NCBI GenBank assembly: GCA_938743325.2 | Contig: OW568861.1 | Span: 124,001 to 188,000 of the forward strand | Direction: 5' to 3' | Source: Pycnococcus provasolii | Lineage: Eukaryota; Chlorophyta; Pseudoscourfieldiophyceae; Pseudoscourfieldiales; Pycnococcaceae | DNA length: 64,000 bases | Program-made: the position numbers and the translations under genes | Notes under the pieces: generated by a model | Told to the model about the DNA's origin: nothing | Seen by the model: the letters and a program-made list of their open reading frames with translations, nothing else | Database searches by the model: none | Part shown: in pieces, positions 45,104 through 46,797 of the stretch | Position numbering within the stretch: the first letter of the stretch is position 1 | How the letters are laid out: every line of letters begins with the position of its first letter

Positions 45104-45572
45104 CTTTGCAAATATATTCTATATCAGTAAATAATGAGAGAAGGAGGAGGCGGGGGGTGACGATAGCGAGGAGCACAGAGAGAGGGAGGAGATAGCACAG
45201 AGAGAGGAGGAGAGAGAGGGGAGAGGGGAGAGGGCGGATTCCCCTCCAACAAGAGACTTGCTTGCATGCGAAGAGCGTTGTAGCCTCGATGCGTCGTCGA
45301 TGCTCTCGCCTATCGGGTAGGGTGGGGAGGAAATCTCACCTGCTAAAAGATAAACTCATCGCGCGGAAAGATCTCCCTGTTCCTCGAGCCCGCCCATCCC
45401 CCTGGATTTCCGGATGAAAACGATAAGGTTGGGATTTTCTGCTTGGAAAATCTCACCGAAGGGAGGGGGGGTGGGGGCTGTGCCCCTGGTGGGGGGGGGG
45501 GGGCTGTGTGCCCTCCCTCTCTCTCCCTTCTCCCGTCTGTTGGTGTGTCATTTTACCATAACCACATCAAAC
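45104..45572. promoter_or_regulatory. Shared promoter region of divergent LHC pair
   Basis: These 469 bp separate the start codons of two closely related, divergently transcribed antenna genes. The space contains a GAGAGGAG purine tract (about 45160-45235) and a G-rich then pyrimidine-rich stretch just before the plus-strand gene. No individual light-responsive site could be assigned. Confidence 0.5.
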
Positions 45573-46256
45573 ATGCTCGCCAAGTCGTCGCTGTCCGTTC
45601 GCTCTGTCCGCGCCTCCAGCCGCGCCATGAAGGTGCGCGCCGACCTCATGCCCGAGTTCGGCTCCTACCCCGGCGGCCCGCGCGAGTCGCCGCTCGTGCC
45701 CTTCACCGATGAGAAGAACGCCGAGCGCGAAATCATCCACGGACGCTGGGCCATGCTCGGAGTCACTGGCGCGTGGGCGGCGGAGAACGGAACGGGAGTG
45801 CCGTGGTTCAAGGCTGGCGAGCTCTGCACGCCGGACGACTGCACTGGCATCCAGTTCCCGGGTGCGCCCGCCCCCCTCGCGCCGGAGGGCAGCGGCTTCC
45901 CGTCCTTCTGGAACGTGCTCGTCATCGAGCTGTTCACGATCGGATTCGCCGAGTCGTACCGCACGGGCCTGCTCGACAACCCCTTCCCGGAGCTCACGCA
46001 GGGAGATGTCTCCCCCGGAGGACGCTTCGACCCGCTCAACCTCGCGGAGAAGTACGACCTCGAGGAGCTCAAGGTGAAGGAGATCAAGCACTGCCGCCTC
46101 GCCATGGGCGCGTGGCTCGGATGCATCTCCCAGGCGCTCGTGACGAAGGAGGGCCCCATCGCCAACTGGTCCGCGCACGTTGCCGACCCGGTCCACCAGA
46201 ACCTCCTCGCCCCCGGCTGGTGCAAGGACTTCGGCCTCTACTGCCAGGCGTACTAA
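45573..46256 (+). CDS. Chlorophyll a/b-binding light-harvesting protein 2
   Basis: The 227-aa precursor starts MLAKSSLSVRSVRASSRAMKVRA, a plastid transit peptide. It shares long near-identical stretches with the protein at 44429-45103, such as AEREIIHGRWAMLGVTGAW and PLAPEGSGFPSFWNV. Helix 3 reads LKVKEIKHCRLAMGAWLG with a His at the central chlorophyll-ligand site. Its C-terminus (APGWCKDFGLYCQAY) differs from the paralogue's. It is probably an LHCI-type antenna in the thylakoid membrane. The two genes most likely arose by inverted duplication and share a promoter region. Confidence 0.95.
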   Translation: MLAKSSLSVRSVRASSRAMKVRADLMPEFGSYPGGPRESPLVPFTDEKNAEREIIHGRWAMLGVTGAWAAENGTGVPWFKAGELCTPDDCTGIQFPGAPAPLAPEGSGFPSFWNVLVIELFTIGFAESYRTGLLDNPFPELTQGDVSPGGRFDPLNLAEKYDLEELKVKEIKHCRLAMGAWLGCISQALVTKEGPIANWSAHVADPVHQNLLAPGWCKDFGLYCQAY

Positions 46257-46797
46257 ATGCTTTCGTCATCGCGCTTTTAGTGTTGATCATGCTTCCTCGC
46301 GGTGGGTTTCGTATGATTTGGGGATTGACAAAATTTGCAGTAATGGCATTAATAGTTTGACAAAAATTATTGCATATACATAATAATAAACTAGACAACT
46401 GTTATGTTGGTCGGTCGTCCATCATTACTCTCGAGCTGGAAAAAAAAAAGTTTTCGTCCATGGCGATCATAATACCCGTACGTAGTGCAAAAAAATAGAT
46501 ACAAGTGCAATGCTCTAACCACTGAGCTAAAAGTGCGCGGCGCTTCAGCGCCGCGAAAAAAATTCGCGGAAAAGTTTTTCCGAAGGGAAATAATGGATGC
46601 ACCATCCGTGGTTCGAACACGGGACCCTTGCATAGATTAGTAGGCTGAACCGGTATCCCCGTCTGCGATGGTGACACTGGATAGTAACAATACTTCGCAT
46701 TCCCTTCTCCTCCTTTATCTTCTTTTCCGCCTCTTTGGCCTTTGCGCTACGATAGGCCTGTCCGTCTATTTATGTCAACCTCATCACCACACGACGC
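46257..46797. other. Spacer containing the permuted tRNA
   Basis: Apart from the tRNA, this space holds the AT-rich 3' UTR of the LHC gene to about 46400 and the promoter region of the TPR-like gene from about 46640. No protein gene is seen. Confidence 0.6.
46500..46633 (-). tRNA. trnT-UGU: Circularly permuted tRNA-Thr (anticodon UGU)
   Basis: On the minus strand the 3' half (46633-46598, bases 38-73) comes before the 5' half (46536-46500, bases 1-37), with a 61-bp spacer between. Joining 5' half to 3' half gives 73 nt. The acceptor stem is GCACTTT with ATGGTGC (one U-U mismatch and one G-U pair). The D arm is GCTC-AGTGGTTA-GAGC, the anticodon stem TTGCA/TGCAA, the loop CTTGTAA (anticodon UGU), the variable loop GGGTC and the T arm CCGTG-TTCGAAC-CACGG; the discriminator is A and no CCA is encoded. 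The break lies between bases 37 and 38, where eukaryotic tRNA introns sit, so the splicing machinery could cut and circularise the transcript. The spacer holds hairpins such as GGCGCTGAAGCGCC. Confidence 0.9.

Follow-up and report, generated by a model that had tools for sequence, protein, structure and literature searches.

The tRNA-Thr(UGU) locus

The two halves of a tRNA-Thr(UGU) gene lie in swapped order on the minus strand of the window, by which we mean the whole 64-kb stretch of DNA analysed here. Both the coordinates and a covariance-model alignment confirm the layout of the original prediction, in which the T arm and the 3' acceptor strand stand upstream of the D arm and the 5' acceptor strand at a distance of 61 nt (Table 1). 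The gene encodes no CCA at its 3' end and carries no GT-AG intron. It adjoins a gene for a chlorophyll a/b-binding protein (45354-46256), whose named relatives include Bathycoccus, Pycnococcus and Micromonas.

Table 1. Features of the permuted tRNA-Thr(UGU) gene and its flanks in the window
Feature	Position	Strand	Content or basis
Second candidate upstream element, GTGTCAC	46671..46677	-	Upstream of 7 of the 27 nuclear tRNA genes
Candidate external promoter element, GGGGATACCGGTTC	46647..46660	-	Not specific to tRNA genes
3' half, tRNA positions 38-73	46598..46633	-	3' anticodon strand, variable loop, T arm with B-box sequence, 3' acceptor strand, A73; covariance-model alignment, 100% genome match
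Spacer between the acceptor strands	46537..46597	-	61 nt; hairpins and a T7 run
5' half, tRNA positions 1-37	46500..46536	-	5' acceptor strand, D arm with A-box sequence, 5' anticodon strand, anticodon TGT, A37; covariance-model alignment, 100% genome match
T7 run, probable Pol III terminator	46489..46495	-	Starts 4 nt past base 37

Neither ARAGORN nor Rfam (at gathering scores) reported a tRNA in the window, as is expected because the gene order is permuted. We therefore used a covariance model built from organellar class I tRNAs of the same assembly, which were rotated at 37/38 and supplied with random 10-nt spacers. The model kept 13 of the 18 rotated tRNAs; four were dropped for a variable loop of 4 nt and a fifth for its odd D arm. 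The window gene was left out of the training set. The model aligned over its full length to 46633-46500 with 51.6 bits (E 5e-17, on a rough calibration), and this was the only match at E up to 10 in the 64 kb. A good score in such a search had been proposed as a check on the prediction, and so had a look for a conventional tRNA-Thr(UGU) elsewhere. When the normal-order 73-mer was searched against the 32.3-Mb assembly, no conventional gene was found; the only matches were the two permuted halves at the window locus (37 and 36 nt, both 100%). A 141-base stretch of the window likewise has a single match in the assembly.

Put back in order, the halves give the claimed 73 nt with one U-U mismatch in the acceptor stem (U6-U67), all other stems being complete and the conserved bases intact. 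ARAGORN read the rearranged 73-mer as tRNA-Thr(tgt), in agreement with the anticodon first assigned, and in the covariance alignment the halves correspond to positions 38-73 and 1-37, which puts the break between bases 37 and 38 where it had been placed. The permuted gene at 46500-46633 is confirmed as an observation, and its interpretation as a tRNA-Thr(UGU) gene is supported. The minimum-energy fold of the bare rearranged 73-mer is not the cloverleaf, a weak argument where an unmodified tRNA is concerned. The spacer folds better than most of its shuffled versions (z -2.4; 4 of 200 as good). By eye, a GCGGAAAAA/TTTTC-like hairpin motif is common to this spacer and the Trp intron, and the spacer of the Leu(CAA) gene also has a strong GC hairpin.

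Nuclear tRNA genes across the assembly

The assembly comprises 46 contigs and 32.3 Mb, with two organelle-type contigs of 24,277 and 80,243 bp. Of at least 120 hits listed for the plastid uS4 protein, the best one that bears a species name is 55% identical. The organism is here called a prasinophyte-type green alga. An Rfam tRNA search, in which 63 of 587 first-look candidates were scored, gave at least 27 matches, 24 of them organellar and only three nuclear (Tyr and, in two copies, Trp, all intron-bearing). Further nuclear genes were sought with sequence patterns for the D arm and B box. The first such search hit 24 places against 49 in a reversed control, so that pattern counts alone prove nothing and a gene was recognised only by reconstruction of its tRNA; 20 of these places were nuclear, and 16 of the 20 lay in tRNA genes. 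A second search gave 17 places, eight of them in tRNA genes. Another yielded 10 places, nine of them nuclear, of which six were tRNA genes by sequence and one more was, by coordinates, the mirror copy of a gene on contig C18; places on C5 and C32 were left out. The last search found 44 places, 33 of them nuclear; nine were genes already found, and six of the 24 others were tRNA genes. A D-arm pattern for Val/Gln-type tRNAs was rejected, none of its 20 places being recognised as a tRNA gene.

With mirror and tandem copies collapsed, the reconstruction gave 27 distinct nuclear tRNA genes, which cover 15 amino acids. All 27 reconstructed tRNAs were read as tRNA by ARAGORN once GT-AG stretches, where present, had been excised; for Ser(GCT), the D arm and the 3' half were assigned by hand in the ARAGORN, junction, motif and T-run analyses. 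Twenty-four of the 27 are permuted, every one at 37/38. The other three, Met with a CAT anticodon, Tyr and Trp, are in normal order and each has an intron at 37/38, so that there is no plain contiguous gene among the 27. The patterns favour intact arms, which should make conventional intact genes the easiest to detect and means that genes broken in both arms would have been missed. Among the nuclear tRNA genes found, permutation is the norm. The pattern searches, which were not exhaustive, gave no nuclear gene for tRNA-Asn, -Asp, -Glu, -His or -Ile.

The Met(CAT) gene of normal order, on C23, has a 17-nt intron at 37/38 as well as a GT-AG intron and occurs twice, the copies being separated by about 22 kb; an ARAGORN-called Met(CAT) gene on C9 is doubtful (A32, U-U at 31-39). 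Three Val genes and two Ala genes have a T loop that starts with A54 and not T54. Many tRNA genes (on C3, C7, C9, C15, C26 and C34) are situated in near-identical inverted repeats, which lie 5-8 kb apart and are 97.9-99.95% identical over a length of 1.2-2.2 kb.

GT-AG introns in tRNA genes

Thirteen of the 27 nuclear tRNA genes carry GT-AG introns, 31 in total, with lengths of 69-80 nt and one to five introns per gene. Twelve of the carriers are among the 24 permuted genes: Ala(AGC) has five introns, Phe(GAA) and Arg(ACG) four each, Ala(CGC), Lys(CTT) and Gln(TTG) three each, Ser(GCT) and Gln(CTG) two each, and Ser(AGA), Thr(AGT), Cys(GCA) and Arg(TCT) one each. The thirteenth is the normal-order Met(CAT) gene, with one. 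The insertion sites are spread over the acceptor, D, anticodon, variable and T regions, and removal of the introns restores the stems; in the reconstructed sequences both Ala genes keep the G3-U70 pair.

The intron borders were set by hand from the sequence, and an excision test in which GT-AG was not imposed served as a check. In this test every 60-85-nt segment within 150 nt was removed in turn, the other introns of the gene being fixed at their hand-set borders. For 27 of the 31 introns, no tRNA was found unless the intron was excised. The GT-AG excision was the sole full-score product for 10 introns and one of two to four such products for 10 more, and the remaining 11 had six or more. Weak cases among these 11 are three anticodon-loop introns that are invisible to the score (intron 3 of Ala(CGC), intron 3 of Lys and intron 5 of Ala(AGC)), intron 1 of Ser(GCT), with 195 full-score products, and intron 1 of Arg(ACG), where a slightly poorer tRNA is still found without excision.

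Part of these introns belong to a family that is also present in protein genes. With its own copy counted, the Arg(TCT) intron matches no fewer than 28 places in the genome, nearly end to end at 25 of them. The same family takes in intron 2 of Ala(CGC) and the Ser(AGA) intron, the latter along with its mirror copy, so that only 3 of the 31 tRNA introns are tied to it. All 12 sampled family copies outside the known tRNA loci split reading frames, and in each the removal of the GTAAGT...AAACAG segment opens a frame of 90-101 codons that spans the join. Of nine joined pieces that were scanned, five match Pfam families, including two domains of dynein heavy chains and the region of Prp8 that binds U5, and the tRNA-Ala(CGC) intron is identical (73/73) to the copy in one dynein gene. 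A second tRNA intron used as query was found at four places in the genome, all of them the mirrored Lys and Phe tRNA loci, and nowhere else. Since near-identical copies of the family occur at unrelated sites and split the reading frames of protein genes, we infer that the GT-AG stretches in the tRNA genes are spliceosomal introns of the introner type.

It has to be considered whether they might instead be atypical introns that are cut by the tRNA endonuclease. This is unlikely in our view. In its favour are the facts that Tyr, Trp and Met do have 37/38 introns, that so small a part of the 31 introns is linked to the family in protein genes, and that there are precedents in the scattered tRNA introns of Cyanidioschyzon merolae (PMC3978253). 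The C. merolae introns likewise sit at many cloverleaf positions and are in some genes combined with permutation, but they measure 11-69 bp and are of the bulge-helix-bulge type (PMC3978253). Against removal by the endonuclease stand the GT...AG ends of all 31 introns, the 10 introns for which the GT-AG excision was the only one to give the full-score tRNA, the complete identity of the Ala intron to the dynein-gene intron, and the position of every sampled family copy elsewhere within a reading frame. The spliceosomal reading is preferred.

Junction and transcription signals

In the introns of eukaryotic tRNAs, the pairing partner of base 32 is the third base ahead of the 3' cut. In the permuted genes, base 32 and position -3 of the leader form a Watson-Crick pair in 20 of 24 cases (0.83); when leaders were swapped among the genes the pairing fell to 0.44, and none of 5000 permutations reached the observed value. 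Four offsets were tried and -3 stood out: the excess at -4 was weaker (0.38 vs 0.20, p about 0.01), and at -1 and -2 the 24 genes showed no excess of pairing with base 32. Among the three normal-order genes, Met, Tyr and Trp, only Met has the 32:-3 pair. The pairing across the permuted set is as expected for the tRNA splicing endonuclease, and the genome contains two loci above the cut-off for PF01974 (tRNA_int_endo). The energy of the leader-trailer duplex was tried as a test for a bulge-helix-bulge and discarded, as it showed no excess over the 24 permuted genes (p 0.61).

Downstream of 25 of the 27 nuclear tRNA genes, a run of seven or more T residues begins no more than 60 nt away; for the other two the distance is 63 and 83 nt. 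The run of Gln(TTG) was taken from the ARAGORN-stage sequences and not from the set used for motif counts. By comparison, such runs occur in 27 of 3458 stretches of 60 nt sampled from the window. Within the gene bodies, 26 of the 27 have no T run longer than 6, the exception being the window gene with its T7 in the spacer. Upstream, ACCGGTT precedes 9 of the 27 genes and GTGTCAC seven, against 0.1 and 0.2 expected from random stretches of the window, in a count that for two genes covered less than 50 nt of upstream sequence. The GGGGATACCGGTTC element has 62 exact sites in the genome, the one at 46647-46660 in the window among them, and, with up to one mismatch, 230 against 4 in the reversed control. 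As a tRNA-specific promoter it was rejected: when 11 further exact sites were sampled, just two proved to be tRNA genes. In two places a 5S-rRNA-like stretch, judged by eye, has a GGTTCGATTCC motif close behind it. These signals suggest that the nuclear tRNA genes may be transcribed by Pol III from an external promoter, which, if real, would leave the gene body open to permutation and introns.

For the window gene itself, it could be argued that this copy is decaying or silent while the set as a whole is functional, ACA codons being read by tRNA-Thr(AGU) with inosine. Inosine reads ACA, and a permuted tRNA-Thr(AGT) gene that could take over exists at C1:441357. The window gene is moreover one of the four exceptions among the 24 permuted genes that have no 32:-3 pair, it has the U6-U67 mismatch, and the T7 run in its spacer is as long as that of its own terminator. 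These features, the internal T7 being unique among the 27 genes, are also among the points that count against our preferred explanation. Nevertheless, the other stems, the conserved bases, the upstream elements and the terminator are all present, and no other tRNA-Thr(UGU) or tRNA-Thr(CGU) that would read ACG was found in the 73-mer and pattern searches, non-exhaustive as these were. We consider a decaying copy improbable and retain the reading of the window gene as a probably functional member of the set.

It is very unlikely that the intron-bearing loci are pseudogenes or tRNA-derived debris. All 27 genes read as tRNAs by ARAGORN after excision, the two Met copies differ in both their GT-AG and their 17-nt canonical intron but are identical in the exon parts that were compared, and the Rfam and D-arm/B-box pattern matches include no intact nuclear copies. 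That the swapped order is an assembly artefact can practically be dismissed: although several sister loci lie in near-identical inverted repeats, which are error-prone for assembly, the layout is common to 24 genes that differ in anticodon and spacer and are distributed over many contigs, and the 141-base window stretch is present only once.

Proposed processing pathway and its significance

Taken together, 46500-46633 is very probably a circularly permuted tRNA-Thr(UGU) gene that belongs to a genome-wide set and whose transcript would be processed as follows. Pol III would initiate at an external upstream promoter, which we propose because the order of the internal A and B boxes is reversed, and would stop at the T-run. 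In those sister genes that bear GT-AG introns, though not in the window gene, the spliceosome would then remove them. The tRNA splicing endonuclease would cleave on the 5' side of base 38 and on the 3' side of base 37, and the two bases would be joined by a ligase to give a circle. Finally, RNase P and RNase Z would excise the 61-nt spacer, and CCA would be added. Transcription, each of these RNA processing steps and the function of the permuted genes are what we infer from the sequences. The pathway is that described for other algae in a 2014 review (PMC3978253).

The same review counts 34 permuted tRNA genes from seven species, with spacers of 1-74 bp and, in green algae, mostly type II junctions (PMC3978253). 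Type II genes, joined at 37/38, are given there for Ostreococcus, Micromonas, the Bigelowiella nucleomorph and Cyanidioschyzon merolae (PMC3978253, Table 1). The window gene resembles them in its upstream 3' half, its 37/38 junction, a spacer within this range, a downstream T-run and the lack of an encoded CCA, and on its own it is a further example of an already known gene type. The green algae listed have 2-6 permuted genes each, and Table 1 of the review gives no permuted tRNA-Thr for them (PMC3978253). The genome differs in that permutation affects 24 of the 27 nuclear tRNA genes found and that half of the permuted genes (12 of 24) also carry GT-AG introns. Permuted tRNA genes have also been described in Auxenochlorella, likewise a green alga outside the Mamiellales, in a paper whose accessible text makes no mention of GT-AG introns in tRNA genes (PMC12633428).

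The family of introns reported here shares with introners the occurrence of near-identical copies at unrelated sites and element ends that coincide with splice sites (PMC12730881). Our search of the open-licence literature found no earlier report of spliceosomal introns in tRNA genes, though one may exist elsewhere, and the sections of the 2014 review that were covered bring up spliceosomal introns only as a contrast (PMC3978253).

In some yeasts, the U6 snRNA gene has an mRNA-type intron, and there, as would be the case here, a Pol III transcript carries a spliceosomal intron; that example, however, concerns a single snRNA gene and not a tRNA, and involves no permutation. Introners, or intron-generating elements, are present in Micromonas. 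To our knowledge they are known only in protein-coding genes, whereas here they would be present in tRNA genes as well. What is new in this genome is permutation as the rule among the genes found, together with GT-AG introns that look spliceosomal.

In summary, it is likely that most nuclear tRNAs of this organism come from permuted genes and that about half of these require the spliceosome to remove up to five introner-type introns from a Pol III transcript before the endonuclease circularises it, so that two splicing systems would act in series. In such an organism, standard tRNA finders miss most of the nuclear tRNAs, as the three nuclear matches of the Rfam search illustrate. The set lets one ask how permutation arises, and whether it does so from giving up internal Pol III promoters, and also whether the spliceosome routinely acts on tRNA precursors.
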